The notes under the pieces are model-generated. The model was not told the origin of the DNA. It worked only from the letters and a program-made list of their open reading frames with translations, and did no database searches. A stretch of 24,584 nt of DNA from an uncultured Anaerolineae bacterium (lineage in GTDB: Bacteria > Chloroflexota > Anaerolineae > Anaerolineales > Villigracilaceae), in NCBI GenBank assembly GCA_903854805.1, contig CAINXK010000496.1:1-24584 (forward strand), read 5' to 3'. The position numbers were made by a program, and so were the translations under genes. Positions within the stretch are counted from its first letter, which is position 1. Each line of letters opens with the position of its first letter. Shown piece after piece: positions 3,393-24,339 of the stretch.

Positions 3393-3395
3393 AAC

Positions 3396-6423: not shown

Positions 6424-6426
6424 CTC

Positions 6427-7476
6427 ATGCAGCCTGATCTCGAAAACCTTCCGAACAGCGTACCATTAAGGATCGCGTTTGCCGGAACAGGATATATCAA
6501 CAAAGTGCACGCCAAATCTGCCAGGAATGCCGGTGCGAATTTGGTGGCAGTTGTCAACCACAGACCCGAATCGATGGCTGAATTTGCCTCGGAATTTACC
6601 ATTCCGAGGCAGTACCAGAACCTGGGTGATCTGCTCAAGGATGGCGGTGTAGACGCCCTGGTGGTTTCAACACCAAACCATCTGCATGCCGAACAGACCA
6701 ACGCTGCACTGCAGGCTGGAGTGCATGTGCTGGTGGAAAAACCAATGGCCATGAATGCGCTTGAAGCAAAGGCCATGCACGACTCGGCTCAAATGAACGG
6801 AAGAACGCTGATGGTGGCACACTGCTTCCGTTTTGATCCGCAAAGCAACTGGCTGCGCGAGCAAATCGCAGCTGGCAAGATTGGGAAAATCATCCGCACC
6901 AAAGGCTATGGAGTGCATGTCAATTGGGGGCCATCCGGCTGGTTTACACAGAAAAAATTCGCTGGCGGTGGCGCCATGGCCGATGTGGGTATCCATGCTC
7001 TGGATACCGCGCGCTTTCTGCTCGGCGATCCGCAGCCCGTCAGCGTGTATGCGAAAATCAGCACAAACTACGGTGATTATGATGTGGACGACACAGGCAT
7101 TGTGTTGGTCAACTGGGATAATGGGATCTGTTCTTATTTTGAGGCCGGTTGGCGGCAGCCACACGCAGATCAAGCCTGCGCAGGCACTCAACTCTATGGG
7201 CAAAACGGTTTTGCTTCGCTATTTCCAACACGCCTCGAAATACCCGAGCCTGGCAAAAATGATCTGAGTTTGCTGATGGAGCCATCGGTTTTTAAAGAAA
7301 ACCGCACTGACGAGGCTTCACAAAACATGTACGATGCCCAGATGCAATATTTTTTGGAATGTATTCAGTCAGGCAAAACTCCCAATCCCGGCGGTTTGGA
7401 AGGCTGGAACAACATGCGCGTTGTAGATGCAGCTTATGAATCCAGCCGGACAGGCAAAGTTGTGGAGCTCAATTAG
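6427..7476 (+). CDS. Gfo/Idh/MocA family oxidoreductase
   Basis: This 349-residue NAD(P)-dependent sugar or cyclitol dehydrogenase has a Rossmann N-terminal half (LRIAFAGTGYINKVHAKSA), the EKP motif of the family (E104-K105-P106), and the DVGIHALD signature (D186, H190, D193) in the C-terminal domain. The start at ATG 6427 lies 3 nt after the GH4 stop; the ribosome site is weak, so translational coupling is likely. Family members oxidise or reduce sugars at C1, C3 or C5, and some make 3-keto glycosides for elimination. Pairing with GH4 suggests a sugar that is oxidised during processing. The exact reaction is not known. Confidence 0.93.
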   Translation: MQPDLENLPNSVPLRIAFAGTGYINKVHAKSARNAGANLVAVVNHRPESMAEFASEFTIPRQYQNLGDLLKDGGVDALVVSTPNHLHAEQTNAALQAGVHVLVEKPMAMNALEAKAMHDSAQMNGRTLMVAHCFRFDPQSNWLREQIAAGKIGKIIRTKGYGVHVNWGPSGWFTQKKFAGGGAMADVGIHALDTARFLLGDPQPVSVYAKISTNYGDYDVDDTGIVLVNWDNGICSYFEAGWRQPHADQACAGTQLYGQNGFASLFPTRLEIPEPGKNDLSLLMEPSVFKENRTDEASQNMYDAQMQYFLECIQSGKTPNPGGLEGWNNMRVVDAAYESSRTGKVVELN

Positions 7477-7575
7477 ACGCGCGCCTTGCACCACAAACTT
7501 GCTGCAGCCACCCGCCAGGAAAATCGAACAGCCTGGCCTCTCATCACCCGGTAACTGAACGGAAAAGGAAAGAAC

Positions 7576-8466
7576 ATGACACCCAACCCACTGCTAAAGA
7601 AACTTGGTTATTCGGATACGGATCGACTGGTGATCATCCATACTGATGACATCGGCATGTGCCAGGCAGCGCTGCAAGCTTTTGAAGATTTATGGGATTT
7701 TGGCACGATCTCTTCCGGCGCTGTGATGGTGCCGTGCCCCTGGTTCCCGGCAACGGCCGAGTATTGCCGGAAGAATCCTGAAGTGGATATGGGCGTCCAC
7801 GCCACACTCAACTCTGAATGGGAAGCATACCGCTGGGGTCCGATCTCGACCCGTGACCCGCAATCTGGCTTAATGGATAAGGATGGTTACTTTCACCAGT
7901 GGCATCCGGCTGTCTATGATCAAGCTCTTCCAGAAGCTGTTGAAGTGGAAGTAAACGCACAGGTGGAACGCGCCCTGGGTGCCGGTATTGATATCACCCA
8001 CATCGACTCACACATGGGCACCATCATGCATCCCAAATTCGTTCAAGCCTATCTCCAGGCCGGAATAAGTCGCAAAATCCCCAATATGGTGCCACGCGCC
8101 AGCGCCCAAGGTTTCTCGATGATGGGCATTAACGCTGAATCTTTGGCTGATTACCAACCGATTCTAGCGCAGCTCGAAGAGCAAGGGCTGCCGATGCTCG
8201 ATGGGCTGGCCGCGCTGCCATTGGAACACAGCGATGACCACATTGGGCTGGCGAAAAAGCTTTTGACCGAACTTCCCGTGGGAGTCACCCATTTCATTTT
8301 TCACCCATCCGTGGATACCCCCGAGTTGCGAACAATCGCCCCGGATTGGCGGGCGCGCGTCGCCAACTACAATGCTTTTATTAGCAAAGAAATGAAAGAT
8401 TTCATCAAAAACTCCGGCATCCAGGTCATTGGTTACCGGAAAATAAAGGATGCGTTGAGGGCGTAA
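7576..8466 (+). CDS. ChbG/YdjC-type carbohydrate deacetylase
   Basis: YdjC/ChbG enzymes are metal-dependent deacetylases; E. coli ChbG removes an acetyl group from chitobiose and chitobiose-phosphate. This 296-residue protein has the metal-binding HTDDIG (H22, D24, D25), the GVHATLNSE stretch (H75), and HIDSHMG (H142, H146), which match the His/Asp metal site of the family. ATG 7576 follows AAAAGGAAAG at 7563-7572. It lies 99 nt after the oxidoreductase and 2 nt before the symporter gene. The 99-nt gap has only a weak inverted repeat (GCCAGG/CCTGGC) and no clear terminator. It implies that an N-acetylated sugar is among the substrates, though other family members may act on other amides. Confidence 0.9.
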   Translation: MTPNPLLKKLGYSDTDRLVIIHTDDIGMCQAALQAFEDLWDFGTISSGAVMVPCPWFPATAEYCRKNPEVDMGVHATLNSEWEAYRWGPISTRDPQSGLMDKDGYFHQWHPAVYDQALPEAVEVEVNAQVERALGAGIDITHIDSHMGTIMHPKFVQAYLQAGISRKIPNMVPRASAQGFSMMGINAESLADYQPILAQLEEQGLPMLDGLAALPLEHSDDHIGLAKKLLTELPVGVTHFIFHPSVDTPELRTIAPDWRARVANYNAFISKEMKDFIKNSGIQVIGYRKIKDALRA

Positions 8467-8468
8467 GC

Positions 8469-9830
8469 ATGGCGGAACAGATGGAAACAAGTATCAAAAC
8501 CCGTGTCTTATATTCGCTGACTGCCCTGGGAGTAACCATACCGGGCGAGGCGGTCGCTGGCGTGATCGCGTTTTACATCGTGGATGTCAAGAATCTACCC
8601 ATCCAATGGTATGCAACTTTCTGGTTTTTCTACACACTCTATAATGCATTTAATAACCCAGTGCTTGGATTTCTCTCCGACCGGACTAAATCACGTTGGG
8701 GGCGGCGCATCCCATATATTCTATTTGGCGGGCTGCCCTATGCTGCGGCCTTTGCCCTGCTTTTTACGGCTCCATTCGACGGTAAGGCCAATCCGGCTGG
8801 GCTCTTATGGTATTTCGGCACTGCCATCGTAGTTTGGGAGGGCCTATATACCGCCCTGGCAACCGGCTATTACGGATTGCTACCCGAAATGTTCGCTACT
8901 TATGAGGAGAGAACCGACGTTGCCGCCCGGATGAACATTTTTCAGATCGTCGGGTTGTTTATCGGCGCAGCCTTGCCCCCTTTGCTGGCAAAACTGCTGG
9001 GCTGGTCTGGAATGGGCATGGTGTTATCCATCATCTCGGTAATCGCGATCTATGCCGGTTATCCAGCCATGTTCGAACGCAAAGAACTAAAAACGGACAC
9101 CAGCTTCCCTTTTCTGGATGCTCTAAAATCAACCTTTTTGAATCGCAGCTATTTGACCGCCGCGGGATCGCAGACCATGCGTTTTTTCGCCACCGGCACA
9201 CTGCAGGCTGGCATGCTTTTCTACATGAAATATAGTCTGAAAGTGGACGAAAGCATGGCAACCGTCATTTTTGGAATTTCGTTTCTGATCGCGGCTTTGT
9301 CGCTCTACCCATGGCGCAATTGGGTGGCCAACAAACTTGATACGCGCCGGACCCTGATGCTTGCCAATGGAGTCATCATGCTCGGCCTGATCCCGATCGG
9401 ATTTGCGCCCAGCCTTGTTTATACATTCATCGGGGCAATCTTCATCGGAATCGGGCTGGGTGGCCTGGTGCTGCTTGGTGACGTCATTATGACCGAAGTG
9501 GTCGACGAGGATCAGGTCAAAACCGGGCACCAACGCGCCGGGATGTATTTTGGGATGAGTGGGCTGGTTATCACTCTGAGCGGGCTGTTGGTTTCGAGTA
9601 TTTTTGGGCTGATCATGCCCATCTTTGGCTACGATACACTTCTGGAAACTCAACCTGAAAGTGTGAACCTGGGCTTCCGCTTGTTTCTGACGATCCCTCC
9701 AGCCATTGGTTTTCTGCTGGCAATCTGCCTGCTCTGGCTGTACCCATTGCATGGCAAATATTTACAAAGCATACGCGAGACACTTGGCACTGCGCGAAAC
9801 AAACAAACTGACAGGAAAGACTCAATATGA
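8469..9830 (+). CDS. GPH-family (MelB-like) sugar:cation symporter
   Basis: This 453-residue membrane protein belongs to the glycoside-pentoside-hexuronide:cation symporter group of the MFS. About 12 hydrophobic segments are visible. The loop GFLSDRTKSRWGRRIPYILF is the typical N-terminal-half signature of MelB-type carriers, with the Asp and Arg of the SDRTKSRWGRR stretch. It begins 2 nt after the deacetylase stop and its last codons overlap the next gene by 4 nt (ATGA at 9827-9830). It would import a glycoside or sugar acid with Na+ or H+. It gives the cluster a second import route beside the ABC system, or serves efflux; direction is not visible. Confidence 0.9.
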   Translation: MAEQMETSIKTRVLYSLTALGVTIPGEAVAGVIAFYIVDVKNLPIQWYATFWFFYTLYNAFNNPVLGFLSDRTKSRWGRRIPYILFGGLPYAAAFALLFTAPFDGKANPAGLLWYFGTAIVVWEGLYTALATGYYGLLPEMFATYEERTDVAARMNIFQIVGLFIGAALPPLLAKLLGWSGMGMVLSIISVIAIYAGYPAMFERKELKTDTSFPFLDALKSTFLNRSYLTAAGSQTMRFFATGTLQAGMLFYMKYSLKVDESMATVIFGISFLIAALSLYPWRNWVANKLDTRRTLMLANGVIMLGLIPIGFAPSLVYTFIGAIFIGIGLGGLVLLGDVIMTEVVDEDQVKTGHQRAGMYFGMSGLVITLSGLLVSSIFGLIMPIFGYDTLLETQPESVNLGFRLFLTIPPAIGFLLAICLLWLYPLHGKYLQSIRETLGTARNKQTDRKDSI

Positions 9831-10849
9831 CAGACGATAAAAAATTTTTTCTGGGTGTGGATGCGGGCGGTACCAAAACCCATGCACTGATTTCAGATGA
9901 AAAAGGACAAACCTGCGGTTTTGGGACCGCTGGGCCTGGTAATTGGGAATCAATCGAACTTGAAGGTCTGCTCGCAACCTTGCAGACAGCAGTTGGCCAG
10001 GCAGCGAGCATGGCCAAGCTCAACATTACACAAATTTCCGGTGCCGGCATGGGCCTGGCCGGGTATGATTGGCCCAGCCAGCGGGAAATGCTACTGGGCG
10101 CAATCAAAGCGCTGGGGTTGAATTGCCCCATCGAGATTGTCAATGATGCCACACTGGGCATCTTTGCCGGTGCGACCCAGGGTTGGGGAGTATCGGTTGT
10201 ATCTGGAACCGGTTGCAATTGCCGAGGCTGGGGCAAAGACCGCCACAGCGAAGGGCGCATGATCGGAGGCGCGCCGCACTGGTCGGGAGAATTTGCGGGT
10301 GGATACGACATTTTGATGCGTGCCATGCGTGCTGTCACCTTCGAATGGGGCAAACGTGGCCCGGCCACCGCGCTTTCCATGGCTTTCCTGAAAAAAACCG
10401 GCGCCAAAAATCTGGATGAATTGGTTGAAGGCATGTACATCCAAAAATATTCGATCGATCCAGCCTTTGTGATGCTGGTCTTCGAGGTGGCAACCCAGGG
10501 CGATGCCGAGGCACTTAACATTTTGCGTTGGGCCGGAGATGAACTTGGTCAGATGGCTTGTGGAGTGATCCGCCAGCTGGGCCTGGAACGGGATACTTTC
10601 GAAGTGGTGCTGATCGGTAGTGTTTATGATGGTCACCCACTCATGACGGAAAGCATGCGCAACACCATCCTGGCAGTTGCGCCAGGGGCGCAGCTTGTGC
10701 GTCTCAAAGCCCCACCCGTTATCGGAGGTGTCTTGCTCGGGATGGAGCAGGTGATCGGTCAGGCTGCCTATCAATACCGCGACAAGCTTGTGCGGAGCTT
10801 TCCCAATTTGGGCTCACAAGCCAACCCCAGCCTCCTGGTTTCAGATTAA
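9827..10849 (+). CDS. BadF/BadG/BcrA-type ATPase, N-acetylglucosamine kinase-like
   Basis: This 340-residue protein has the actin/hexokinase fold of the BadF/BcrA ATPase domain that includes eukaryotic and bacterial N-acetylglucosamine kinases. Visible elements are the phosphate-1 loop FLGVDAGGTKTHALISDE (residues 6-23), the phosphate-2 region VVSGTGCNCRGWG, and the sugar-side IGGAPHWSGEFAGG. Length is normal for GlcNAc kinase. No Cys cluster of benzoyl-CoA reductase activators is present, so that role is unlikely. It overlaps the symporter by 4 nt and is 9 nt before the next gene. In this cluster it most plausibly phosphorylates an amino sugar after deacetylation or glycoside cleavage; the exact sugar is not visible. 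Confidence 0.88.
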   Translation: MTDDKKFFLGVDAGGTKTHALISDEKGQTCGFGTAGPGNWESIELEGLLATLQTAVGQAASMAKLNITQISGAGMGLAGYDWPSQREMLLGAIKALGLNCPIEIVNDATLGIFAGATQGWGVSVVSGTGCNCRGWGKDRHSEGRMIGGAPHWSGEFAGGYDILMRAMRAVTFEWGKRGPATALSMAFLKKTGAKNLDELVEGMYIQKYSIDPAFVMLVFEVATQGDAEALNILRWAGDELGQMACGVIRQLGLERDTFEVVLIGSVYDGHPLMTESMRNTILAVAPGAQLVRLKAPPVIGGVLLGMEQVIGQAAYQYRDKLVRSFPNLGSQANPSLLVSD

Positions 10850-10858
10850 CGAGGAAAA

Positions 10859-12043
10859 ATGTCGATCCGGATCGGTTACGCGCAATCCATTATTACCCCA
10901 GCCCTGGTACGGCCGGTTTTCCTGGCCGGTTTTGGACAAAATCGCCGTGCAGTGGATGTTCACGATGATTTATTTGCGCGCGTCCTGGTTGTGTGCTCAG
11001 ATAGTGAGACCCTGGTCCTATGCGCATTGGACTTGATTGGCTTTTTTCGCAAGGATGTTTTGGAAATAACCGAGCGCATACACCTGCAAACCCCGGGTGC
11101 CCAGCTGATCCTGGCCAGTACACATACCCATCACGGACCAGACAGCATGGGTCTTTGGGGTCCAGACGATAAAACCAGCGGCGTTGATGCGCTCTACATG
11201 CACGAATTAAAAGAAATAGTTATCGCAACTATTTTGGATGCGCTCAGTAGCTTAAACCCAGCCAGTTTGTTGACAGCTTCCATCCACGTACCCGGGGTGG
11301 CAAAGAATGCCAGAAATCCCGCAATCGTTGACGATGAATTAACGATCGCACAATTTATCGACCCTCACGGAAAAGCACTCGCCAGCCTGTTTAATTTTCC
11401 ATGTCACCCTGAAGTACTCTGGGAACACAATCCACATATCAGTGCCGATTATCCGGGCGTGCTGCGGCGCGAGGTGGAGCGCGCCAGCGCAGCCCCATGC
11501 ATCTTCTTTGCAGGCGCACTGGGCGGTATGATGACACCGGATGTAAAGGAGCACTCCTTTGATGAAGCTGAATTGATCGGGAAGAAGCTGGCTGAAGAGG
11601 GCTTGAAGGCCATAGAATCTAAGGCGCTGCGTGCTCAGCCAGACCAGATCAGCATTCGTAAGGCTGAAATCAATCTCAAACTCACCAACGTTTTGTACAA
11701 ACTGGCCTTCTGGCGCAAACTTCTACCAGATACCCGCAACAAACGCGGGGAGCTGATCAGCGAGGTCAACCTGCTTAAGATCGGGCCGTTATGGCTGGCA
11801 ACTGTCCCCGGAGAAATGCTGCCGGAGCTGGGCATGGCACTAAAAAACAGCCTGATCAGCGCTGGTGCAGGCGTTGCTGGAGTGATTGGGCTTGCGAATG
11901 ATGAACTTGGTTACATCCTACCAAAAGAAGATTTTAAATACCCACTCAATCCATTCAGGCCTGGCAAGCATTATGAAGAGACAAACGCCATCGGCAAGGA
12001 GATTGGCCCGCGGGTGATCGAAGCACTATTGAGCCTGCTGTGA
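10859..12043 (+). CDS. Short neutral/alkaline ceramidase-like zinc hydrolase
   Basis: This 394-residue protein resembles the N-terminal catalytic domain of neutral/alkaline non-lysosomal ceramidases. It contains STHTHHGPDSMG (H89, H91), CHPEVLWEHN (H183), VPGEMLPELG (E319) and NDELGYILPKEDF (Y352), in the order of the zinc-binding residues of that fold. Full bacterial ceramidases are about 650 residues with a C-terminal domain and signal peptide; this one lacks both, so it is probably cytoplasmic. The likely position of the catalytic Ser reads as Thr (T226 in GGMMTPD), which is uncertain by eye. Given the neighbours it may cleave an N-acyl or ester bond on a sugar, not ceramide. GAGGAAA precedes ATG 10859. 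Substrate is unknown. Confidence 0.75.
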   Translation: MSIRIGYAQSIITPALVRPVFLAGFGQNRRAVDVHDDLFARVLVVCSDSETLVLCALDLIGFFRKDVLEITERIHLQTPGAQLILASTHTHHGPDSMGLWGPDDKTSGVDALYMHELKEIVIATILDALSSLNPASLLTASIHVPGVAKNARNPAIVDDELTIAQFIDPHGKALASLFNFPCHPEVLWEHNPHISADYPGVLRREVERASAAPCIFFAGALGGMMTPDVKEHSFDEAELIGKKLAEEGLKAIESKALRAQPDQISIRKAEINLKLTNVLYKLAFWRKLLPDTRNKRGELISEVNLLKIGPLWLATVPGEMLPELGMALKNSLISAGAGVAGVIGLANDELGYILPKEDFKYPLNPFRPGKHYEETNAIGKEIGPRVIEALLSLL

Positions 12044-12079
12044 CCATCCCAAAATCATCAAAATTGTAGACCAGTCTGG

Positions 12080-13285
12080 ATGAAATCAGTCCCTGATATT
12101 CCAACCACCCGCGCCGTCTGGCTAATGCGCGCTTATTACCTGCTGTGGACCGGTGCAGGTGGTTTTATTTTTCCTTTTATCAGCCTGTTTTACAAACAAC
12201 AGGGGCTTACCGGGACCCAAATGGGGTGGCTCGGCACAATCACCAGCATCGTCAGCCTGATCAGCGCCCCTCTTTTGGGTCGCCTGAGCGACAAGCTCTC
12301 CAATCCACGCAAGGTCCTTCAATTTTGCCTGTTTGGGTCGGCTATGCTAATGGCACTGCTCAGCCAGCAAAGTTCTTTTTTGTGGATGGCGATCATCATT
12401 GGGTTGGAAGCATTCATCGGCGGCCCAATTTACCCACTCTCAGACGCCCAGGCCCTGATGATCACCAACGAGAAGCAAGGCTACGGTTCGATCCGGTTAT
12501 GGGGATCACTGGGCTGGGCTATCACAGCTTTCCTGGGAGGCTTGATGGTGCAGCGCGCCGGGTTGGTGACAGTATTCATCGGCTATGCCACCCTATACGG
12601 AATATGCATATTCATGCTGCAATGGATCATAACCTCGGCTGGCACAGCAAAAAAAGAGACTGACCCGCAACCTTCGTTAAAAGCAGTCGTCCGCTCGCTT
12701 TTCCGCGATCGCGCCTTGATCGGGCTGGCGCTCAGCCTGGCAGTCTTATGGTTGACAGCCAACGGCCGGCATCACTTCGAGACCATTTATATGCAAGAAC
12801 TCGGCGCAAGCGACCAGGTAATTGGCTGGGCCTATACATACCCGGCGCTGATGGAATTACCCATCATGCTCTGGGCGGATAGACTGATGCAAAAATTCAG
12901 CGCTGGAAGGCTGCTGGCAGCAGGTATCCTGCTGGAAGGTTTATCAATGCTGGTGATCGTTATCTTCCCTACACTTGAAAGCATGCTATTCATGCGTGCC
13001 GCCAGTGGGCTGTATTACAGTTTTTATGCAATTGCATCTGTAGCCTACGCGGTGGAGCGCGCACCAGCTGCCCAGGCGGCAACTGTGCTTTCATTATATT
13101 TTGTCAGCCTGGGCGGAGTTATTGCATTGATTGCATCGCCCATCAGCGGCGCGATCTATGATCGGAGTGGCGCATATCCGCTCTATGTGATTGCAGCCGT
13201 AGGCGCCTTGCTGGCCTGGCTGATCCTGGTATTGACACATCCAAAAGCCAACCAGACCAGCGCCCAGGATTTTGCGCCAGAATAA
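12080..13285 (+). CDS. MFS transporter (MFS_1-like)
   Basis: This 401-residue carrier has about 12 membrane spans. The motif-A-type loop GRLSDKLSNPRK lies between spans 2 and 3, and YGSIRLWGSLGWAITAFLGG is typical of the MFS_1-like/LacY-related subgroup. It begins 36 nt after the ceramidase-like gene with only a weak ribosome site, so it is probably the last gene of the operon. The substrate is unknown; a sugar or nucleoside-type solute is plausible from the subgroup. No terminator with a T tail was found in the stretch that follows. Confidence 0.87.
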   Translation: MKSVPDIPTTRAVWLMRAYYLLWTGAGGFIFPFISLFYKQQGLTGTQMGWLGTITSIVSLISAPLLGRLSDKLSNPRKVLQFCLFGSAMLMALLSQQSSFLWMAIIIGLEAFIGGPIYPLSDAQALMITNEKQGYGSIRLWGSLGWAITAFLGGLMVQRAGLVTVFIGYATLYGICIFMLQWIITSAGTAKKETDPQPSLKAVVRSLFRDRALIGLALSLAVLWLTANGRHHFETIYMQELGASDQVIGWAYTYPALMELPIMLWADRLMQKFSAGRLLAAGILLEGLSMLVIVIFPTLESMLFMRAASGLYYSFYAIASVAYAVERAPAAQAATVLSLYFVSLGGVIALIASPISGAIYDRSGAYPLYVIAAVGALLAWLILVLTHPKANQTSAQDFAPE

Positions 13286-13856: not shown

Positions 13857-13889
13857 CCACGGAATTATTTGCAGAAAAGGGAGAAGACC

Positions 13890-15890
13890 ATGTCTGAACT
13901 TGCACGACCAATAGGAATTGGGTTTGCCGCGCGCGGCAAAGTTTCCGAGGTTGTCGGCTGGGCCGATGATGCCCGCCGCCAGGGAGTTCACTCTGTCTGG
14001 ATCCATGACAGCCTGTATGAACGCGATGCTGTTACTTACGCCACAGCCATCGCAGTACAGGTTCCACAAATCCGCGTCTCGCTCGGAGCGCTCAGCGTTT
14101 ACACGCGCTCGCCTGCATTGATTGCGATGACAGTTTCTGCACTCGACGAAATCGCTCCAGGGCGGATCATCCTGGGGCTTGGCACATCCATACCACTACG
14201 CTTGGCCCAAATGGGTATTCCTTATAGCCCCGAAGCAGGTGTCGAAAACGTCAGTAAAGCGATTGATACTCTCAAAGCGATGTGGACAGGTCAACGGATC
14301 CCATCGGCGACCCCCAACCTTCCGCCCATCCAGCCAATGTTCCCTCCAGTTCACCGTGTACCGATCTACATAGCGGCCTACCGCACCCCGTTCCTGCAGC
14401 TCGCAGGTGAAAAAGCAGATGGATATCTTGCGCGTCCGGCAGAATCCATCCCCAATATGAAACGGCTGATCGCGAAACTGCGCAGCGCTGCTGTAGGAGC
14501 CGGGCGGGATGAAAATGCCGTCGATGTAGCCGGGTACTTGCTCACGCACGTGGATAAATCCCGGCGCGAAGCAATGAACCGTGCCAAGCGGGAACCGTTC
14601 GTAATTTACATGATCAGCGTTCTCTCCAACTTCTCGCTGGAACAAGCCGGTTTCGAGCCGGCTTTGCGCGATCAAATCGCGGCGGCCTGGCGGGCAGAGG
14701 ATTATCATAAAGCTGCCCAGTTGATCCCAGATGAAGTCCTGGACTCCTTCATGCTATGCGGCACGCCTGATGAAGTTGCGGAGGGCGCGGCTCGTTATAA
14801 TGAAGCTGGTATGACCACCCCCATATTACAGCCCATCATCCAGGAAGACGATCAGATCCAAAAGATATTACACGCGGCTCAACTCTATGGGTCAGCAGCC
14901 ATCAAAGAGACTTCCAGACCAGCCGTAGAAACATTATTCCAATCTACGAGCGGAACAGGAAAAGAAAAGGACCGCTTGAATGTATTTGAACGGACCTGGC
15001 GAAAATTTGGGGCTGCGGTTGAAATTACCCGCCCGTTCAGCTTTACGGCCTCCGCAATTCCGGTACTGGCCGCTGGCGCGATTGCCCTGGTTGAAAAGCA
15101 ATTCAATTTTCCACTCTTTTTGATCTCCCTGGCGGCCTCCGTCCTGCTTCACATCGGCACCAATATCACCAATGAAATCTATGATGTTCGAAACGGTGTT
15201 GACTCAATTACATCTCCACGCGCCAGCCTTTCCTTGCTAAAAGGCCGCCTTACAGAAAAAGAAGCCTTTACGCTCACATTTACAGCTTTTACCCTGGCAA
15301 TGCTCTTTGGGATTGCTTTGATCGCTGCCCGGGGTTGGCCGGTGGCCCTGCTGGGATTTTTGGGATTAGCGCTGGGGTTCGGCTACACCGCCCCACCCTT
15401 CCAATACAAATACCGCGCAATGGGCTTACCGCTCGTCTTCATATTGATGGGTCCGTTGATGGTCATGGGTGCTTACTATGTCATCACTGGCAGCATCAGT
15501 ATTTCGCCTGCGGTTGTGAGCATTCCGATTGGTTTTCTGGTCACTGCCATTTTGCATGGCAATGAATGGCGGGATATTTCTGATGATGCCCGCTTTGGGA
15601 TTGGGACCTTTTCAGGGTTTGTCGGCCGCAAATGGGCTCATCTGGTGTACGTCTCACTCGTCAGCGGGGCTTTTCTGGCAGTAGTGCTGGGTGTGCTCTT
15701 ACACTGGTTACCCCAAACCAGCCTGCTGGCGCTGCTCTCATTGCCGCTGCTTGTGCGAGCGGTTCATACGGCCGGGATGGGCGTCAATGGATTACAACGT
15801 TCAATCGCCAAAATTGATCTTGAAACTGCCCAGCTGCACGCAGCCTTTGGAATCTTGTTCGTGGTCGGTCTGGCCCTCGGGAAAGTATGA
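13890..15890 (+). CDS. Fusion: LLM flavin/F420 oxidoreductase + MenA/UbiA-type prenyltransferase
   Basis: ATG 13890 with AAGGGAGAAG gives 666 residues. The frame is open upstream to 13782, but that part lacks homology-like text and precedes the promoter. Residues about 1-330 are a luciferase-like monooxygenase fold similar to F420-dependent Mer-type reductases (GRIILGLGTSIPLRLAQMGI). After a linker, residues about 365-666 form a polytopic membrane domain of the UbiA superfamily. Its two Asp-rich motifs are NEIYDVRNGVD (N428, D432, D438) and NEWRDISDD (N558, D562, D566), closest to MenA-like dihydroxynaphthoate prenyltransferases. The fusion suggests a redox step coupled to attachment or modification of a prenyl chain, as in quinone or lipid synthesis. 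It overlaps the next gene by 4 nt. Confidence 0.88.
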   Translation: MSELARPIGIGFAARGKVSEVVGWADDARRQGVHSVWIHDSLYERDAVTYATAIAVQVPQIRVSLGALSVYTRSPALIAMTVSALDEIAPGRIILGLGTSIPLRLAQMGIPYSPEAGVENVSKAIDTLKAMWTGQRIPSATPNLPPIQPMFPPVHRVPIYIAAYRTPFLQLAGEKADGYLARPAESIPNMKRLIAKLRSAAVGAGRDENAVDVAGYLLTHVDKSRREAMNRAKREPFVIYMISVLSNFSLEQAGFEPALRDQIAAAWRAEDYHKAAQLIPDEVLDSFMLCGTPDEVAEGAARYNEAGMTTPILQPIIQEDDQIQKILHAAQLYGSAAIKETSRPAVETLFQSTSGTGKEKDRLNVFERTWRKFGAAVEITRPFSFTASAIPVLAAGAIALVEKQFNFPLFLISLAASVLLHIGTNITNEIYDVRNGVDSITSPRASLSLLKGRLTEKEAFTLTFTAFTLAMLFGIALIAARGWPVALLGFLGLALGFGYTAPPFQYKYRAMGLPLVFILMGPLMVMGAYYVITGSISISPAVVSIPIGFLVTAILHGNEWRDISDDARFGIGTFSGFVGRKWAHLVYVSLVSGAFLAVVLGVLLHWLPQTSLLALLSLPLLVRAVHTAGMGVNGLQRSIAKIDLETAQLHAAFGILFVVGLALGKV

Positions 15891-16525
15891 TGAAAAAAGA
15901 TAAGAATTTACTGATTTTCGGTTCGGCGCTTGCCTTTGGGTTGTTCGCGCTGACCTTTCGCGGGCCCAAGAAAAGATTCTGGGATCGAATGACGGGAACC
16001 GGTCTTTCACTGGGTACGCTTTCGCTTGCCACACAACCAGAATTGAGAAAGACCCGCATTGGGATCAAGGAAATATTTCTTGGGATCGGGTCAGCCGCAG
16101 TCCTTTATGGAATTTTCCACATTGGCGATCGCCTTTCGCGGGTCATTGTTCCGAATGGCGGCCAACAAATCGATGACATTTATAAACTTAAGCGCATTCG
16201 CCCACGCGAAGAATTGATGACCCGTCTGACACTCGTGATCGGCCCGGCCGAGGAGTTTTTCTGGCGCGGCTTCTTACAGGATGGTTTGATGCAGCAATTC
16301 GGTCGCTTTTGGGGCTGGGTGGCTGGAACCGCTGCCTATGGTGGCGCACACATCGCCAGTGGAAACTTTACCTTGATTGGCGCCGCGACAATAGCAGGCG
16401 GATTCTGGGGCGGGCTGTATGCGCTCGGTGTGCCACTGGGCGCTTTGATAGTCAGTCATATTATCTGGGACAATCTGATCTTCCTGATTGCGCCAACTTC
16501 AAAATTGGAAGAAGAGCTGTCCTGA
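15887..16525 (+). CDS. CPBP (Abi/CaaX-type) intramembrane metalloprotease
   Basis: This 212-residue membrane protein carries the CPBP glutamic protease motifs: PAEEFFWRGFL (E122, E123, R127), then YGGAHIASGNF and HIIWDNLIF with the later conserved His residues. Family members process prenylated proteins in eukaryotes (Rce1) and act in bacteriocin self-immunity or unknown membrane processing in bacteria. The start at ATG 15887 overlaps the stop of the upstream fusion (ATGA); a second ATG at 15890 is equally possible. Coupling to a prenyltransferase-containing gene is notable because CaaX processing in eukaryotes also pairs prenylation with this protease fold, but that link is only inference here. 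Confidence 0.88.
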   Translation: MMKKDKNLLIFGSALAFGLFALTFRGPKKRFWDRMTGTGLSLGTLSLATQPELRKTRIGIKEIFLGIGSAAVLYGIFHIGDRLSRVIVPNGGQQIDDIYKLKRIRPREELMTRLTLVIGPAEEFFWRGFLQDGLMQQFGRFWGWVAGTAAYGGAHIASGNFTLIGAATIAGGFWGGLYALGVPLGALIVSHIIWDNLIFLIAPTSKLEEELS

Positions 16526-16906: not shown

Positions 16907-18904
16907 ATGAGAGAACTGCCCGCCCGCGACGTCACCATCATAGATAGCTTCTGGTCAGCCCGGTTAGAAATTAACGCCACACGGGCCATTTTTCACCAGT
17001 GGAGCCAGCTGGAAAAAAGTGGCTGCATCGATAACTTCCGGATTGTTGCCGGCGAAAAACAGGGCTTCCGCGAAGGCTGGGTCTTTGCAGATTCAGATGC
17101 CTATAAATGGTTGGATGCGGCAGCGCGAATTTACGCCATATCACCTTCTGATGAACTAAAGCAATTGATGGATGAGCTCATTGCGCTTCTGGCTCGCACT
17201 CAAATGGCGGATGGCTATATTAACACCTATAACCAGTACCATTTCCAGGGTCAACGCTGGGTGAACCTGCAAATTGAGCACGAACTTTACTGCCTCGGAC
17301 ACCTGATCGAGGCGGGTGTTTCACACTTCGAGGCCACTGGCGAGAGCCGTGCCCTCGAGATTGCCAGGCGCGCCGCCGACCTTCTGGTTACCAGCTTCAA
17401 GACTGCCTCACCTGAGCGCACCGAAGGTCACCAGGAAATAGAAATTGCCCTGATGCGGCTATTCATGGCAACCGGCCAAACTGAGTACCTCGATCTGGCT
17501 CAAAACTTTATCGAACTACGCGGGCGGATCCATTTTTTTGCATTGATCGCCCAGCGAGAATATGCCAGCCACCAGGAACGCAAGGCCTATATCAATACAA
17601 AACGCAGCGAATACGCGCTTACGCATCCAGAATATAGCGTATCAAAAATTCCAGCAGATAACGAATCCAAGAACCCACCCTTTTCCAAACTGCGCCGACA
17701 GCTGAATGCCTGGCGTGGATTTTACAATCAACAACACGCCCCGGTCCGTCAACAAACCATCCCGGTCGGTCATTCAGTGCGATACGGCTACTTCCAGACC
17801 GCCACGGCCATGCTCCACCGGCTGAGAGGCGATGCCAGCCTGCTGCCAGCCTTGCAGCAATCCTGGGAACACCTGGTCTGCCGCCGGATGTATGTCACCG
17901 GTGGGATTGGCTCGCTACCTGGGAATGAAGGTTTCGGCTTCGATTATGAACTTGATCCAGAATACGCTTATAACGAGACTTGTGCTGCACTCGCCAGCCT
18001 GTTCTGGAACTGGGAAATGGCACTCGCCACGCGCCAGGCTCAATACAGCGATCTCTTTGAATGGCAGCTGTATAATGCCGCCGCGGTGGGCATGGGCTTG
18101 AATGGCGAAACCTACCTTTACAACAATCCGCTGAGCGTACAGCGTTCGCACAGCGTTACGCGCAAAGCCTGGTATTCTGTGCCGTGTTGCCCTCCCAATC
18201 TCTCGCGGACCTGGGCAAGCCTCGGCAAGTATATTTATTCCCATGCCGAGTCTGACTTGTGGATCCATCAATATTTTGGGAATGAAACAAGCCTTGAAAT
18301 GGAGACCCTGACCACGCGCATCCGGATTGATTCACAGCTGCCCTTCGATGGTTGTGTGACCGTCCAGCTGGACCCCGTTTCTGAAAGCAAGTTTCGCGTC
18401 AATTTACGTATTCCATCCTGGTGCCTGGCTATTCCGGGCGGCTCGCAAGCATCCGGTTGCAAGGTATCGATCAACGGGACGGCCTACCCGTTCCAGACTC
18501 CACCCTACCCGGCCGGCCAGATCGCAAATGGGTTCGACCCGCGCGGCAGCTTCTTCCTGCCAATTTCGCGCAGCTGGAGCCCTGGTGATATGATCAAGAT
18601 GGAATTTGATATGCCGGTTATGCTGCGCCACGCACATCCGAAAGTAAAAAATCACCAGGGCAAAGTTGCCATAACCCGTGGGCCACTCGTCTACTGTCTC
18701 GAAAGTAACGACAATCCGGGTGTGGATATTTTCACGACCAGGATTGATCCGGCCAGCTTGCTTCCGGTCGTGGCCGAGACTGAACTAGGCAGAATCACCA
18801 CCCTGCGCGGAAAATCAGTGCAAGGCCAAGACCTGACCTTCATTCCATATCAAATGTGGGCCAATCGAGGCGCATCTCAGATGACAGTCTGGGTGAATGG
18901 CTGA
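16907..18904 (+). CDS. GH127 beta-L-arabinofuranosidase-like glycosidase
   Basis: GH127 enzymes release beta-linked L-arabinofuranose using a zinc-bound Cys nucleophile, as in Bifidobacterium HypBA1. The 665-residue length fits. The N-terminal part (VTIIDSFWSARLEINAT, then QMADGYINTY) and the (alpha/alpha)6 barrel text are typical. The zinc/catalytic residues are visible: NETC (E357, C359) and VPCCPPN (C427, C428), which correspond to HypBA1 E338, C340, C417 and C418. There is no signal peptide, so it acts on imported fragments. The ribosome site before ATG 16907 is weak. It stands apart from the main cluster with repeat elements upstream. Related GH146 and similar families share the fold, so exact linkage is uncertain. 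Confidence 0.92.
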   Translation: MRELPARDVTIIDSFWSARLEINATRAIFHQWSQLEKSGCIDNFRIVAGEKQGFREGWVFADSDAYKWLDAAARIYAISPSDELKQLMDELIALLARTQMADGYINTYNQYHFQGQRWVNLQIEHELYCLGHLIEAGVSHFEATGESRALEIARRAADLLVTSFKTASPERTEGHQEIEIALMRLFMATGQTEYLDLAQNFIELRGRIHFFALIAQREYASHQERKAYINTKRSEYALTHPEYSVSKIPADNESKNPPFSKLRRQLNAWRGFYNQQHAPVRQQTIPVGHSVRYGYFQTATAMLHRLRGDASLLPALQQSWEHLVCRRMYVTGGIGSLPGNEGFGFDYELDPEYAYNETCAALASLFWNWEMALATRQAQYSDLFEWQLYNAAAVGMGLNGETYLYNNPLSVQRSHSVTRKAWYSVPCCPPNLSRTWASLGKYIYSHAESDLWIHQYFGNETSLEMETLTTRIRIDSQLPFDGCVTVQLDPVSESKFRVNLRIPSWCLAIPGGSQASGCKVSINGTAYPFQTPPYPAGQIANGFDPRGSFFLPISRSWSPGDMIKMEFDMPVMLRHAHPKVKNHQGKVAITRGPLVYCLESNDNPGVDIFTTRIDPASLLPVVAETELGRITTLRGKSVQGQDLTFIPYQMWANRGASQMTVWVNG

Positions 18905-18980
18905 TCAGGCTCATTCAGCGAATGACGTACTCAGCAAATCACTTCATTTTGATCAGATATTTAGGGAAAGTAGCCATTAA

Positions 18981-19955
18981 ATGCCAGGTTATCGACTTCA
19001 GCGCGTCAAGCTGATTTTCAACCCCACCTCAGGGCGCTCTGATTCTTCGCCGACCTTGCTCCAGGAGGTGGTAGCTGAACTTCAGGCTCAAAACTTCATC
19101 CCAGAAGTCTATCTGATTGACCCAGGCGCCAATCTCTTCCAGGTCTTGGACGAAGCGTTCAGACGCCGCATCCGCCTGTTTGTCGTCTGCGGCGGAGATG
19201 GAACCATCGAAATCGTTTCACACTGGATCATCGGGAAAAACGCAGTGCTGGGGATCATTCCGGCCGGTACCCAAAACAATCTGGCCCTCAGCATGGGCAT
19301 ACCGGCCGAGATCAAGGCTGCAGTTGGGCTGCTACGAACCGGGCAGCGCAGCAAAATCGACATCGGTATTGCCAGGGTTGGAGACACCGAAATCCCATTT
19401 CTGGAGGTATGTTCGATTGGGCTTTTTTCGGCGCTGTTTAATTCCGCGGACAGTCTTCAAAAAGGTGATCTGGCCAGTCTGGGAGAAATTCTTTCCACTC
19501 TAGCGTCATTTCCAGTCGCTCATATCCAACTGGCTTTGGACAAAAAACAAACCATCAGCCTGCATGGGCATGTCGCACTGGTAGCCAACCTACCATTTTT
19601 TGGCTTAAATTATCGGCTGACTCCCAACAGCCCCTATGATGACGGTTTGCTGGATATACTGGTTTTTACAGAATTTACCAAGCTGGAATTGGTCGGGAAC
19701 GTGCTCAATCAGGGCGGTGCTGGGGAGGCTGCCTTGGATGAGCGCATCCGCCGTTTTCGGGCGCACAGCCTGGTCATTAGAACTGACCCAGTCATGCCAG
19801 TCCAGGCCGATGATACAGCGCTCGGAAACACACCTGTCCATATAACCACCCAACGCAAGGCTATTACTGTCATGACAGGGTTGCCACCATCACACCAACC
19901 ACGCCTGGGTGGTTTTCTGCGTAACTTGAACATCTTCCGTTTTTTGGGAAAATAA
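18981..19955 (+). CDS. Diacylglycerol kinase / sphingosine kinase family protein
   Basis: This 324-residue cytosolic lipid kinase has the DAGK catalytic signature: KLIFNPTSGRSD near the N terminus, CGGDGTIEIVSHW with G71-T75 as the nucleotide-binding GGDGT, and IIPAGTQNNLALSMGIP. The C-terminal beta-sandwich half follows (NLPFFGLNYRLTPNSPYDDGLLDI). ATG 18981 follows AGGGAAAG at 18963-18970. It would phosphorylate diacylglycerol or a related lipid such as a sphingoid base. A ceramidase-like hydrolase is encoded about 7 kb upstream; a common sphingolipid theme is possible but not supported by operon structure. Confidence 0.9.
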   Translation: MPGYRLQRVKLIFNPTSGRSDSSPTLLQEVVAELQAQNFIPEVYLIDPGANLFQVLDEAFRRRIRLFVVCGGDGTIEIVSHWIIGKNAVLGIIPAGTQNNLALSMGIPAEIKAAVGLLRTGQRSKIDIGIARVGDTEIPFLEVCSIGLFSALFNSADSLQKGDLASLGEILSTLASFPVAHIQLALDKKQTISLHGHVALVANLPFFGLNYRLTPNSPYDDGLLDILVFTEFTKLELVGNVLNQGGAGEAALDERIRRFRAHSLVIRTDPVMPVQADDTALGNTPVHITTQRKAITVMTGLPPSHQPRLGGFLRNLNIFRFLGK

Positions 19956-20088
19956 GCTTCCAGCCGCCAGATGATTGGATCAGCGCTTAGATTACACGCA
20001 TATATTCCAATTACGCGTCTGACGGCCCTTGTGGAAAATCGCAGATAAATCTTTAAGACGCTATTTTTTTGTTCAACCAGGGAAAAGC

Positions 20089-21009
20089 ATGCACAAACTA
20101 CTGCTCCTTACAAAAGACAAGGATCGCGAAGCGTATGGCAGGTATTTACGAGCTGCAGCGCTCCCTGAGCTGGAGATTGCCAGTTCAAGCATGCCAGACA
20201 TTGACCTGGTTTTTGGTGAGCCCAATCTGATCCGTGAGGTTCTACCCGACCTGCCGGCGCTGCGCTGGGCCCAGGCTACCTGGGCCGGCGTGGACCCATT
20301 GCTTGATCCAAGTCTCAGACGTGACTATATCCTGACCAATGCCCGTGGTGTCTTTGGCGGTTTGATGTCAGAATACGTTTTTGGCTATCTGTTAATGCAC
20401 GAACGCAAAATCCTGCAGCGCCTGGCGGCTCAAAAACAATCCCGCTGGGAGCCCAGCCTGACTGGCACGCTGCGAGGCAAAACGATCGGCCTGTTGGGTG
20501 TCGGCTCGATTGGCGCGCACCTGGCCGAAAGCGCCCAACACTTTGGCATGCGAGTGCATGGTTATACCCGCAACAGTGAAACCAGCCCGCAAGTGGACCG
20601 GTATTACCACGGGGCTGAATTATTGTCGTTTGCATCCCAACTGGATGTGCTCGTCAGCACGCTACCCAACACAAATGAAACCAGGAAAATCGTCAGTGCC
20701 AGCCTGCTGGAAGCCCTGCCAGAGCAGGCTATCTTCATCAACGCCGGACGGGGCAGCGCCGTGGATGAAGCCGCCCTGATCGATGCGCTCAAGCGTGGCA
20801 GACTGGCCGGCGCGGTTCTGGATGTTTTTGAACAGGAACCGCTGCCAGCGGAACACCCATTCTGGCAGACAAAAAACTTATTCATCACCAGCCACACCGC
20901 CGCGCCCAGCTTTCCACAGGATATAGCCAGCCTGTTCATTGATAATTATCGTGCCTACATCGAAGGCAAGCCGCTCAAGTATCAAGTGAGTTTTGAATTG
21001 GGGTATTAA
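20089..21009 (+). CDS. D-2-hydroxyacid dehydrogenase (GhrA-like)
   Basis: NAD(P)-dependent D-isomer-specific 2-hydroxyacid dehydrogenase. The open frame extends to a TTG at 20029, but ATG 20089 is preceded by CCAGGGAAAA and begins where homology-like text starts (MHKLLLLTKDKD), giving 306 residues. The Rossmann motif GLLGVGSIGAHLAE and the catalytic triad are visible: Arg in NAGRGSAVDE (R221), Glu in FEQEPL (E250) and His in TSHTAA (H269). Likely substrates are glyoxylate, hydroxypyruvate or another 2-keto acid. It is separated from its neighbours by more than 130 bp on each side, so it may be a single-gene unit. Confidence 0.92.
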   Translation: MHKLLLLTKDKDREAYGRYLRAAALPELEIASSSMPDIDLVFGEPNLIREVLPDLPALRWAQATWAGVDPLLDPSLRRDYILTNARGVFGGLMSEYVFGYLLMHERKILQRLAAQKQSRWEPSLTGTLRGKTIGLLGVGSIGAHLAESAQHFGMRVHGYTRNSETSPQVDRYYHGAELLSFASQLDVLVSTLPNTNETRKIVSASLLEALPEQAIFINAGRGSAVDEAALIDALKRGRLAGAVLDVFEQEPLPAEHPFWQTKNLFITSHTAAPSFPQDIASLFIDNYRAYIEGKPLKYQVSFELGY

Positions 21010-21323
21010 TCATCTCCGGAAAATAAACTTTCATTTCGCGAACAACAAAACACTTCTATAAATCAGAATCCTGCCTGGTTCGTCTCAACGATTTGTTTAG
21101 CGTTTAATTTCTGTGGTCCGGTTCTGCGAGGCTGAATTTTTAGACTGCGAATCAGGAGGTAACTACGCAGCGGGGAGATCCCTTTTCGCAATATCAAATC
21201 CAAACAGCACTTCCCGGGTTTTATACGCTACGTGTCAGACACCTTTCACCCGTATTTTCATACGAATGAAAACTGTAAGCAGACGCCACAACGAGCAATT
21301 CACTTGGATGGCCAGGAGAGAAA
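21010..21323. other. 314-bp intergenic stretch, no gene seen
   Basis: AT-rich at its left end. A small frame (21113-21343) overlaps the next gene's start and has no recognisable domain. A short palindrome (TTTTCAT 21255-21261, ATGAAAA 21266-21272) about 50 bp before the MFS start could be an operator. No convincing promoter hexamers were found. Confidence 0.5.
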
Positions 21324-22535
21324 ATGGGCAACCAGAAATTTAAATTGTATGGCTACCGGTGGGTAGTGTTGGCAGTTTTCATGTTCATTAATTTAACCAT
21401 CCAGATTTTATGGATCGGTTATGCCCCGATCACCGGCCCGGCAGCCAGATTTTATGGCGTCAGTGACCTGCAGATCGGGCTGCTGGCCATGACCTTCATG
21501 ATCGCATTCATTCCATTATCCATCCCCGTCTCATGGGTGATAGATACCTATGGCTTCCGCGTAGCGGTCAGCATTGGGGCGGTTTTAATGGGGATTTTCG
21601 GTTTGGCACGCGGATGGGCAGGAAATCAATACACACTTGTGCTGTGGAGCACCATAGGAATTGCGATTGCCCAACCCTTTCTGCTGAACGCCTGGACCAA
21701 GGTTCCTGCCAATTGGTTTGGGGTCGACGAACGCGCCACGGCTGTTGGCTTGGTGACACTTTCCAGCCTGGTCGGGACTGCGCTTGGCATGGTCCTGACG
21801 CCCATCCTGACCGAAAGCATGTCAATCCCCACCGTTCAATTGATCTATGGCGGCCTGGCGACTTTTTCGTCTGTCTTGTTTATCGCCCTGGCGCGCGAGA
21901 AGCCACCCACGCCACCCTGCCCTGCGGGCGATGAGGTCCGTTCGCTGATGCTCGACGGTCTCAAGCACGCCTTTCAAGTGAAAGCCTTCTGGTTATTTCT
22001 GGTAGTTTTTTTCCTTGCCATGGGCATCTTTAACGGAGTAACCACCTGGGTGGAGGATATCATTCGCCCACGCGGTTTTAGCCCGATTGATGCCGGAACG
22101 GTTGGTGCGCTCATGCTGGTCGGCGGGGTGATCGGCGCTGTGGTGATTCCACCCTTCTCGGATAAACAGCACAAGCGACGCATCTATTTAGTAGTGGGAT
22201 TCTTGTTAGCCATTCCCTGCCTGCTGGTTCTGACGTACGCGACCAGCGCCTGGGTATTGTTTACTTCATCTTTTTTCCTGGGCGTTTGCCTGGTAGGTGT
22301 CAGCCCGATCGGGATCCAATATGCAGCCGAAATTACACATCCCACACCAGAAGGCACTTCCAATGGGCTGATCCAGCTTTTTGGTCAGGCTTCGGTGGTA
22401 TTCGTCTATATCATGGAGGCTACCAAGTCAGCGGATGGGGCTTTTACCCCGGCGCTCCTGCTTGCGGCGGGCTTGCTTGCGATCAGTGTGCTGTTGGCCA
22501 CACAACTGGTTGATCCACACTTCGCCACAGAATAA
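21324..22535 (+). CDS. MFS transporter, FLVCR/DIRC2-like group
   Basis: This 403-residue carrier has about 12 membrane spans. The text RWVVLAVFMFINLTIQILWI and NAWTKVPANWFGVDERATAV is typical of the FLVCR/DIRC2-like MFS branch, which includes haem and organic-cation carriers in animals and many uncharacterised bacterial members. ATG 21324 has a strong AGGAGAG at 21314-21320. It stands alone and converges with pgi. The substrate is not predictable. Confidence 0.88.
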   Translation: MGNQKFKLYGYRWVVLAVFMFINLTIQILWIGYAPITGPAARFYGVSDLQIGLLAMTFMIAFIPLSIPVSWVIDTYGFRVAVSIGAVLMGIFGLARGWAGNQYTLVLWSTIGIAIAQPFLLNAWTKVPANWFGVDERATAVGLVTLSSLVGTALGMVLTPILTESMSIPTVQLIYGGLATFSSVLFIALAREKPPTPPCPAGDEVRSLMLDGLKHAFQVKAFWLFLVVFFLAMGIFNGVTTWVEDIIRPRGFSPIDAGTVGALMLVGGVIGAVVIPPFSDKQHKRRIYLVVGFLLAIPCLLVLTYATSAWVLFTSSFFLGVCLVGVSPIGIQYAAEITHPTPEGTSNGLIQLFGQASVVFVYIMEATKSADGAFTPALLLAAGLLAISVLLATQLVDPHFATE

Positions 22536-22574
22536 TTGTTGCACTGATGTGTAGTAGCTGACCAGCGGATGGGT

Positions 22575-22619
22575 ACAATAATTTTTTTGTGGTTATTTCG
22601 CGCAGCGCGAAATAACCAC
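22575..22619. repeat. T-run plus palindrome element (copy B)
   Basis: ACAATAA and seven T precede a stem of 13-15 bp: GTGGTTATTTCGCGC at 22589-22603 and its reverse complement at 22605-22619. Leader and first ten stem bases match copy A at 16811 with one indel and two changes, while the inner stem differs. The changes are compensated within each stem, so the fold is kept. It lies between the convergent MFS and pgi genes and might serve as a two-way transcription barrier, but the T run is on the wrong side for a standard terminator on the + strand. Confidence 0.75.
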
Positions 22620-22639
22620 CTATGGGCATGCTTCTCGCA

Positions 22640-22679
22640 GGGGCTGCAATCGCATACAGCCCCAACCCAGCCTGGTTGG
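22640..22679. repeat. Two overlapping short hairpins between convergent genes
   Basis: GGGGCTG (22640-22646) pairs with CAGCCCC (22657-22663), and CCAACC (22662-22667) pairs with GGTTGG (22674-22679). The two structures share two bases, so they are mutually exclusive or adjacent. They lie 8 bp beyond the pgi stop on the minus strand and may help end its transcript; neither has a T tail. Confidence 0.45.
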
Positions 22680-22686
22680 CTCAGGT

Positions 22687-24339
22687 TTAAGGGCTTTCGC
22701 CCCTTAAAGATTTGATCGCATTGATCAGGCCGTTTGTGGATGAATCATGGCTGCTTACCGGGCCATTTCCTGCCAACTCCGGCAGGATCTGCTTGGCTAA
22801 CTGCTTGCCCAGTTCAACTCCCATCTGATCGAAGGAATTGATGTTCCAGATCACACCTTGCACAAAGATTTTGTGCTCGTATAGCGCGATCAAACCGCCA
22901 AGCACTTCCGGGGTTAATTTTGGATAGAGGAAGGAATTTGTTGGCCGGTTGCCTGGAAAAGTACGGGCGGGCACGAGAGCCTCGAGCTGCTGGCCTGAAA
23001 TACCTTCTTTTTCCAGTTCGGCACGGGCTTGCTCAGCAGACTTGCCTTTCATCAGGGCTTCGGTCTGAGCCAGGTAGTTAGAGAGCAGAATGGAGTGATG
23101 ATCTCCCAGGGGGTTGTGGCTGACAGCGGCGGCCAGGAAATCACACGGGATCAGCTGAGTACCCTGGTGAATAAGCTGGTAAAAAGCATGCTGACCATTG
23201 GTGCCTGGCTGGCCCCAGATGACTGGCCCAGTTGAATAGTTGACCCACTCACCCTGCCGGGTAACACTCTTTCCGTTGCTTTCCATATCGCCCTGTTGAA
23301 AATAAGCCGGGAAATAGGCCAGATATTGGTCATAAGGCAAAATGGCGTGGGAATGTGCATGAAAAAAATTAGCGTACCAGACACCCAGCAGCCCCATCAT
23401 GACCGGGATATTCCTCTCGAGCGAGGCTGTGCGAAAATGCTGGTCGACCTTGTGCGCGCCAGTCAGCAGCTCTTCAAAACAATCCATGCCCACGTACAGG
23501 GCAATTGAGAGCCCAATCGCAGACCAGAGCGAATAGCGACCGCCAACCCAATCCCAAAATTCAAACATATTACGGGTATCGATCCCAAATTTGCTGACCG
23601 CTTCCGAGTTGGTGGACATGGCGGCAAAATGCTTGGCAACAGCAGCCTCGTCTTGCGCTGCAGCCAGGAACCAGCGCCGCGCCGATTGCGCGTTGGTCAT
23701 GGTTTCCTGGGTGGTAAAGGTTTTTGAAGCCACCAGAAACAGCGTGGTTTCAGGGTTAAGCGACTTAAGGGTCTCTACCAGGTCCGTGCTATCGACATTG
23801 GAAACAAAATGCAAGCGCAAATCATCACGGGCATAAGGCTTTAATGCCTCACAAACCATCTTGGGACCCAGGTCCGATCCGCCAATGCCAATATTAACGA
23901 TATCGGTCATCGGTTTGCCGGTATAACCCTTCCATGCGCCAGAGCGGACAGACTCGCTGAACCTTCGCATGCTGGTCAGCACCCGCTTGATCTCGGGCAT
24001 CACATCCTGCCCGTCGACGTAGATCGGGGTATTCGAGCGATTTCGCAAGGCAATATGCAATACAGCCCGATTTTCAGTGACGTTTATCTTTTGACCGCTG
24101 AACATGGCTTCAATATTTTGAGACAGATCTGCCTGGCGAGCCAGGTCGAACAATAAAGACAAGGTTTTTTCAGCAATACGGTTCTTGGAATAATCGAACA
24201 GAATTTCTCCAAACCGTAAGGAAAAGCGTTCAAAGCGCTGGGGGTCCCGCGCGAAAAGGTCCTTTATCTGCACAGCCTCAATTTCGCGCTGATGCTGGTT
24301 CAATGCCTGCCAGGCTGGTGATTCTTCAAGACGGGACAT
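22687..24339 (-). CDS. pgi: Glucose-6-phosphate isomerase
   Basis: Cytoplasmic isomerase that interconverts glucose-6-phosphate and fructose-6-phosphate. I chose the ATG at 24339-24337, which has AGGAGAA just upstream on the minus strand and gives 550 residues, close to the 549 of E. coli Pgi; the frame extends 17 codons further without support. Active-site residues are in place: [25 protein letters not shown]353 in DMESNGK, H384 in NGQHAFYQ and K512 in VELGKQLA, matching E. coli E355, H386 and K514. It is the only minus-strand gene and would channel glucose-6-phosphate from the neighbouring sugar pathways. Confidence 0.98.

Follow-up and report, generated by a model that had tools for sequence, protein, structure and literature searches.

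A conserved fusion of a putative F420-dependent LLM oxidoreductase with a UBIAD1/MenA-like prenyltransferase in Chloroflexota and other bacteria

The animal vitamin K2 prenyltransferase UBIAD1 is reported to form no menaquinone-4 (MK-4) without dithiothreitol (DTT), and its authors state that reduction of menadione must precede prenylation (PMC4398444). For Mer, the F420-dependent methylene-tetrahydromethanopterin reductase, Glu6 is described as the catalytic residue and Gly61-Val62 as a non-prolyl cis-peptide below F420 (PMC11094777). A 2026 survey found many lineages with no known quinone pathway, most of them Bacillota and Chloroflexota, and suggested that some quinones may await discovery (PMC13386864). 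Here we analyse a stretch of 24,584 nucleotides from an uncultured Anaerolineae bacterium (contig CAINXK010000496.1, hereafter the window), in which the frame at 13890..15890 (+ strand) encodes a luciferase-like monooxygenase (LLM) domain followed by a UbiA-type prenyltransferase domain. Judged by Pfam scores, homologues and an AlphaFold2 model, a putative F420-type LLM barrel and a UBIAD1/MenA-type prenyltransferase are joined in one conserved chain. The fusion is a candidate enzyme with reduction and prenylation in a single polypeptide and may help explain quinone supply in bacteria that lack the usual quinone genes.

The open reading frame runs without interruption from an ATG at 13890 to a stop ending at 15890 and encodes 666 amino acids; its longest possible start is an in-frame TTG at 13782, and a possible ribosome-binding site, found by eye, precedes the ATG (GGGAGA, 13879..13884, +). 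The initial annotation had placed both domains in one frame, and the Pfam scores agree: Bac_luciferase/LLM (PF00296) matches residues 17-309 with 160.7 bits against a gathering cut-off of 27.9, and UbiA (PF01040) matches residues 390-622 with 98.8 bits against 34.2. Both domains are modelled confidently (mean pLDDT 86.5, pTM 0.77), with pLDDT below 50 at residues 340-360 and 565-570. In addition to the scores, membership of PF00296 is consistent with a Mer-like TIM-barrel in the model, and membership of PF01040 with two Asp-rich motifs and long predicted helices at 365-663. The chain divides into the LLM TIM-barrel domain (residues 1-334, 13890..14891, +), a linker that is variable in the alignment and contains the low-confidence stretch 340-360 (residues 335-368, 14892..14993, +), and the membrane prenyltransferase domain (residues 369-666, 14994..15890, +). 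Asp-rich motif 1 (residues 425-438, 15162..15203, +) comprises N425...N428-E-I-Y-D432-V-R434...D438. Asp-rich motif 2 (residues 556-568, 15555..15593, +) reads HGNEWRDISDDAR, that is N558-E-W-R561-D562-x-x-x-D566. Both motifs had been noted before; their N, E, W, R and D residues show no variation across 44 aligned fusions, the window included, which served as the set for scoring residue invariance.

Relatives with the same architecture are numerous. Both Pfam domains occur in every one of the best 120 among 2302 protein matches, a set that contains the protein of the window itself, and tblastn (E 1e-40) finds relatives with 47-86% identity at 75 loci on contigs of other genomes. Seventy-four of these align to the fusion as a single stretch, while one (L068) has two aligned stretches in different frames; L065, L066 and L074 are truncated or only partly covered, and the match at L041 ends at residue 620. 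Most loci belong to metagenome-assembled genomes (MAGs) labelled Chloroflexi, Chloroflexota or Anaerolineae/Anaerolineales, the other labels being Dormibacterota, Actinobacteria, Frankiales, Dehalococcoidia, 'bacterium' and one partial Acidobacteriota. Of 301 genomes sampled evenly from the phylum, 38 have a match to the fusion with an E value of 1e-60 or lower, a few of them in pieces or partially. An assembly or sequencing error that joined two separate genes, one of two ways in which the initial annotation could have failed, is thereby ruled out for practical purposes. A few membrane halves that lack a barrel would favour such an artefact (P0174, P0188 and P0123, whose contigs measure 248-547 kb; such halves are rare among the best matches); the two-domain matches, the 75 other contigs and the 38 genomes contradict it. 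The other way, intact unfused versions in all close relatives, fails on the same loci and genomes. In a protein search with the UbiA half, many of the best 120 of 550 matches look like fusion fragments. The LLM-UbiA fusion is thus a real and widespread domain combination within known families and constitutes no new category. Databases contain many such proteins without remark. A narrow literature search, with most subscription papers outside its scope, found no described enzyme with this domain order, as the initial annotation had supposed, and a listing-level search of the literature on F420 genes in Anaerolineae found no description of the architecture.

The barrel is nearest to Mer (1z69, 8qpl) in sequence and fold, and its nearest relatives use F420. 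Alignment and fold comparison therefore agree with the Mer likeness first proposed, with a refinement at the active site. Gly11 (13920..13922, +), invariant in the 44 fusions, takes the place of the catalytic Glu6 of Mer (PMC11094777), and Gly66-Ala67 (14085..14090, +), nearly invariant, stands at the place of Gly61-Val62. Asp96 of Mer aligns with Ile101 of the fusion, where many relatives have Leu; a comparison at Gln178 was dropped because position 178 of the aligned chain is not Gln and the numbering disagreed with the paper. The fusion scores 129 bits with the Mer equivalog model TIGR03555, below its cut-off of 348.7, which together with the Gly in place of the catalytic Glu rules out a true Mer. 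When the fusion model was compared with known structures by VIA-align, most rows spanned residues 5-340, and UBIAD1 appeared at rank 38 among the best 50. We consider the barrel a putative F420-dependent LLM enzyme, given its nearest relatives and the presence of CofE in 26 of 30 host genomes searched (see below). An alternative is that the LLM half is a monooxygenase using flavin mononucleotide and O2 that hydroxylates an aromatic ring, with the prenyltransferase acting on the hydroxylated product; in view of the same relatives we hold this to be improbable.

For the membrane half, the assignment as UbiA-type stands and its MenA character needs qualifying. The top NCBIfam model is MenA (NF004749), with 165.8 bits against a cut-off of 277, and the MenA model TIGR00751 gives 76.3 bits against 102.15; these equivalog cut-offs rule out a standard MenA, to which the domain is nevertheless related. 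The sole solved relative recovered by sequence search is UBIAD1 (PDB 8djk, E 2.2e-23, 26% identity). By sequence and predicted fold, MenA and UBIAD1 are the closest relatives. In a tree of 37 UbiA domains, three rows of which are long, the fusions form a supported clade whose grouping with MenA is weakly supported (92/92). MenA and the fusion have the same motif skeleton, N-E-x-x-D...D in motif 1 and HGNEWRDxxxDxR in motif 2 being kept; MenA has no LLM fusion partner, unlike the window protein, and its GPxR after motif 1 is SPRAS in the window. UBIAD1 and the window also differ in the residues after motif 1, and the solved UBIAD1 chain is without a reductase domain, whereas the fusion has one. 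The window has the UBIAD1 stretch AILHxNxxRDxxxDxxxGI (pattern from one UBIAD1 chain); across the 44 fusions AILHGNEWRDI shows little or no variation, but the final GI differs in some relatives, for example GA in L010; three bacterial MenAs have GK where the window has GI. Because SPRAS replaces GPxR, the acceptor is probably not 1,4-dihydroxy-2-naphthoate (DHNA), and it may be a naphtho- or benzoquinol-like compound, perhaps without a carboxylate.

The probable difference in acceptor, like the failure of the fusion to reach the cut-off of any listed MenA equivalog model, would also suit a membrane half that makes a non-respiratory prenylated product, such as a precursor of ether lipids, a cofactor bearing a prenyl group or some other terpenoid, with the barrel reducing the head group or double bonds of the chain. 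This appears rather unlikely, since MenA and UBIAD1 are the closest proteins by sequence and fold and, among the best 25 of 39 models for the fusion, only one is of chlorophyll type (33 bits) and none is an archaeal lipid model.

Further evidence comes from gene content. Thirty host genomes of the 75 loci, picked to span identity and label, were searched for quinone and F420 genes. MenB over cut-off was found in 0 of 30 and MqnA/D in 0 of 30; MqnC over cut-off was likewise found in none, weaker matches in nine genomes falling at CofH genes. NuoH of complex I (PF00146), counted in these 30 hosts, is matched in 29. Because the hosts show no MenB or MqnA/C/D over cut-off while nearly all match NuoH, a quinone fits best among the three products initially offered (quinone, prenylated flavin-type cofactor or archaeal-like lipid); the results favour neither of the other two, without excluding them. 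Across the 301-genome sample, MenB over cut-off is present in 104 genomes and an MqnA/D match in 48. Menaquinone genes (MenB or MqnA/D) occur in one of the 38 fusion genomes (G260) compared with 150 of the 263 others (Fisher p 1e-11, kinship uncorrected). A quinone-independent function does not predict that the fusion should avoid genomes with menaquinone genes, which argues further against a non-respiratory product. The fusion marks a set of genomes with no MenB or MqnA/C/D over cut-off that still match complex I.

We tentatively favour, without calling it probable, a two-step membrane enzyme in which F420H2-driven reduction of a quinone-type head group is followed by its prenylation. The barrel would pass the hydride of F420H2 to the head group or its enone precursor, and the membrane domain would at once prenylate the resulting hydroquinone with polyprenyl diphosphate to give a prenylquinol for the respiratory chain. 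The head group could be obtained by salvage from neighbours, in the way that UBIAD1 uses menadione, or could come from an unknown pathway, and a CPBP protease encoded beside the fusion might serve in regulation, maturation or as a scaffold. Such an enzyme would fit bacteria that have complex I and are without both known menaquinone head-group pathways. As menadione must be reduced before UBIAD1 can prenylate it, a built-in reductase makes chemical sense, and the same order of reduction before prenylation may apply here. Alternatively, the barrel could be an F420H2:quinone reductase that feeds the quinone pool, the prenyltransferase being merely its membrane anchor. F420H2:menaquinone reduction is known for Ddn, though the Ddn fold differs (PMC8498797). 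The Asp-rich motifs of the prenyltransferase, invariant in the 44 aligned fusions, indicate that this half is not a mere anchor, and there is little likelihood in our view that the alternative is correct.

Several observations weigh against the proposed reduction and prenylation of a quinone head group. The quinone link is a genome-wide co-occurrence with no operon behind it, and the neighbours in the window look sugar-metabolic, mostly by eye; the Fisher p is inflated by kinship among the genomes. One genome (G260) carries both the fusion, as an 854-aa open frame with two matched stretches, and MenB over cut-off. The 30 of 75 hosts were chosen by the authors and are all MAGs by title, their completeness not being given. 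Weaker matches to the MenB model occur in all 30 (best 244 bits against 342.7, in G028) and are read as other enoyl-CoA-hydratase-type proteins. The negative results for quinone routes cover MenB and MqnA/C/D, no search having been made for genes of ubiquinone or plastoquinone synthesis, and PF00146 can match related hydrogenase subunits as well. Twenty-one of the 30 hosts have no FO synthase over cut-off, which weakens the F420 assignment for those hosts. Finally, the fusion is often not the sole candidate, since 11 of the 30 hosts encode a standalone protein of MenA type and 15 a second MenA-like UbiA family.

The 11 MenA-type hosts (G001, G004-G007, G013 and G020-G024; loci L144, L148, L089, L154, L161, L170, L111, L179, L183, L187 and L191) answer the question in the initial annotation of another menA in the host, and as hosts that would need no second such protein they lend some weight to a non-quinone product of the fusion. 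L089 and L111 score over the TIGR00751 cut-off; the remaining ones are assigned by best match. These hosts have no MenB, MqnC or MqnA/D over cut-off, and DHNA salvage is possible. They resemble quinone auxotrophs such as Lactiplantibacillus plantarum, which keep late prenyl-transfer genes without the upstream ones and use exogenous DHNA; the passages on them mention no reductase fusion (PMC10746273). In G015, G018, G027 and G030, all four of which match NuoH, no MenA-like UbiA protein besides the fusion was found, which speaks for the proposed quinone function; G010 and G011 have, besides the fusion, only unclassified fragments and heme-type enzymes. Host UbiA proteins were classed by BLAST grouping or best match in nearly all places, and 10 were scored with NCBIfam. 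Left unclassified were two fragments in G010, one in G011 and weak matches at L164, L167, L181, L188, L196, L198, L200 and L201.

The second MenA-like family, which we label SKWL, has SKWLxxTRA near the N-terminus and occurs as tandem copies in some genomes (loci L078, L139, L140, L129-L132, L095, L103, L106 and L113). In two aligned members its motif 2 is GKHxDKxxxD instead of N..RDxxxD. No quinone operon was found in the neighbourhoods of this family; by eye, one copy (L132) adjoins cydAB-like genes.

Host F420 genes, which the initial annotation had proposed as a check, were recovered mostly for the tail: besides CofE, 25 of the 30 have CofD over cut-off, while only nine have FO synthase, counted as CofG and CofH both over cut-off. 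F420 tail-building genes without a known FO source are seen in 16 of the 25 CofD hosts (G001-G008, G011, G015-G017, G019, G027, G029 and G030; for example L116, L117, L119 and L120). These hosts either obtain FO by salvage or have a different synthase. An F420 gene cluster with CofE/CofD is present in G005, G001, G002 and G008; for the clusters of G005 (L119) and G001 (L116), Pfam scoring identifies CofC, an F420-dependent NADP oxidoreductase and an LLM protein, as well as a nitroreductase, a PNPOx-type protein and an amidohydrolase.

Directly downstream of the fusion, overlapping its stop by 4 nt, lies the gene for a CPBP/Rce1-like intramembrane protease (15887..16525, +; PF02517, 47.8 bits against a cut-off of 22.4). 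A profile was built from 53 sequences of the first gene call (53 of the 76 loci, that is, the 75 loci and the window; 51 directly adjoining). With it, a CPBP gene was found downstream on the same strand within 1500 nt in 72 of the 76 loci, which identifies the gene pair as the conserved unit. Four loci have none in this range: L066, which is truncated by the end of its contig, L011, with 1257 nt left before the end, L004, and L017, where the CPBP gene lies at a distance of 2308 nt. E122, E123, R127, H155 and H191 are kept in at least 90% of the 53 sequences; the EE and His residues are those characteristic of CPBP/Rce1-like proteases. No quinone operon was found around the fusion in the 76 loci, the CPBP gene being the sole near-universal neighbour.

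In a broader version of our proposal, Chloroflexota, Dormibacterota-type lineages and some actinobacteria would have a respiratory quinone route, by salvage or de novo, that has so far gone unrecognised. The fusion would catalyse its committed step, driven by F420H2, in which a carboxylate-free naphtho- or benzoquinone is reduced and prenylated in one polypeptide with CPBP as obligate partner; in this full form the proposal is conceivable, yet we think it unlikely. If true, it would explain complex I in lineages counted as without a quinone pathway. Confirmation that reduction and prenylation share a chain would extend the UbiA enzymes by a redox-coupled class and give F420 a new respiratory use. 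If this is not confirmed, the fusion and CPBP pair would still be a widespread membrane system for which the narrow literature search found no description.

Elsewhere in the window, 161-13285 and 16907-24390 hold genes that resemble those for sugar uptake and breakdown, by eye an ABC transporter, glycosidases, MFS transporters and a glucose-6-phosphate isomerase-like protein; the frames scored with Pfam are of ceramidase, GH127 and DAGK (diacylglycerol-kinase) type. Near or adjoining the fusion, a UbiE/MenG-like methyltransferase gene was seen by eye in six of the 76 loci (cluster 24, representative L038|-1), in keeping with the proposed quinone function. At L101:2836-4206, downstream of a fusion and a CPBP frame, lies a further UbiA protein whose N-terminal part spans 150 aa. 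This part has no Pfam match at E 5, and none is consistent in 14 relatives; a split-barrel flavin domain, suggested by eye, was dropped on that result. The protein has 4006 protein matches at E 0.001, and among the best 120 the few that are organism-named are actinobacterial.
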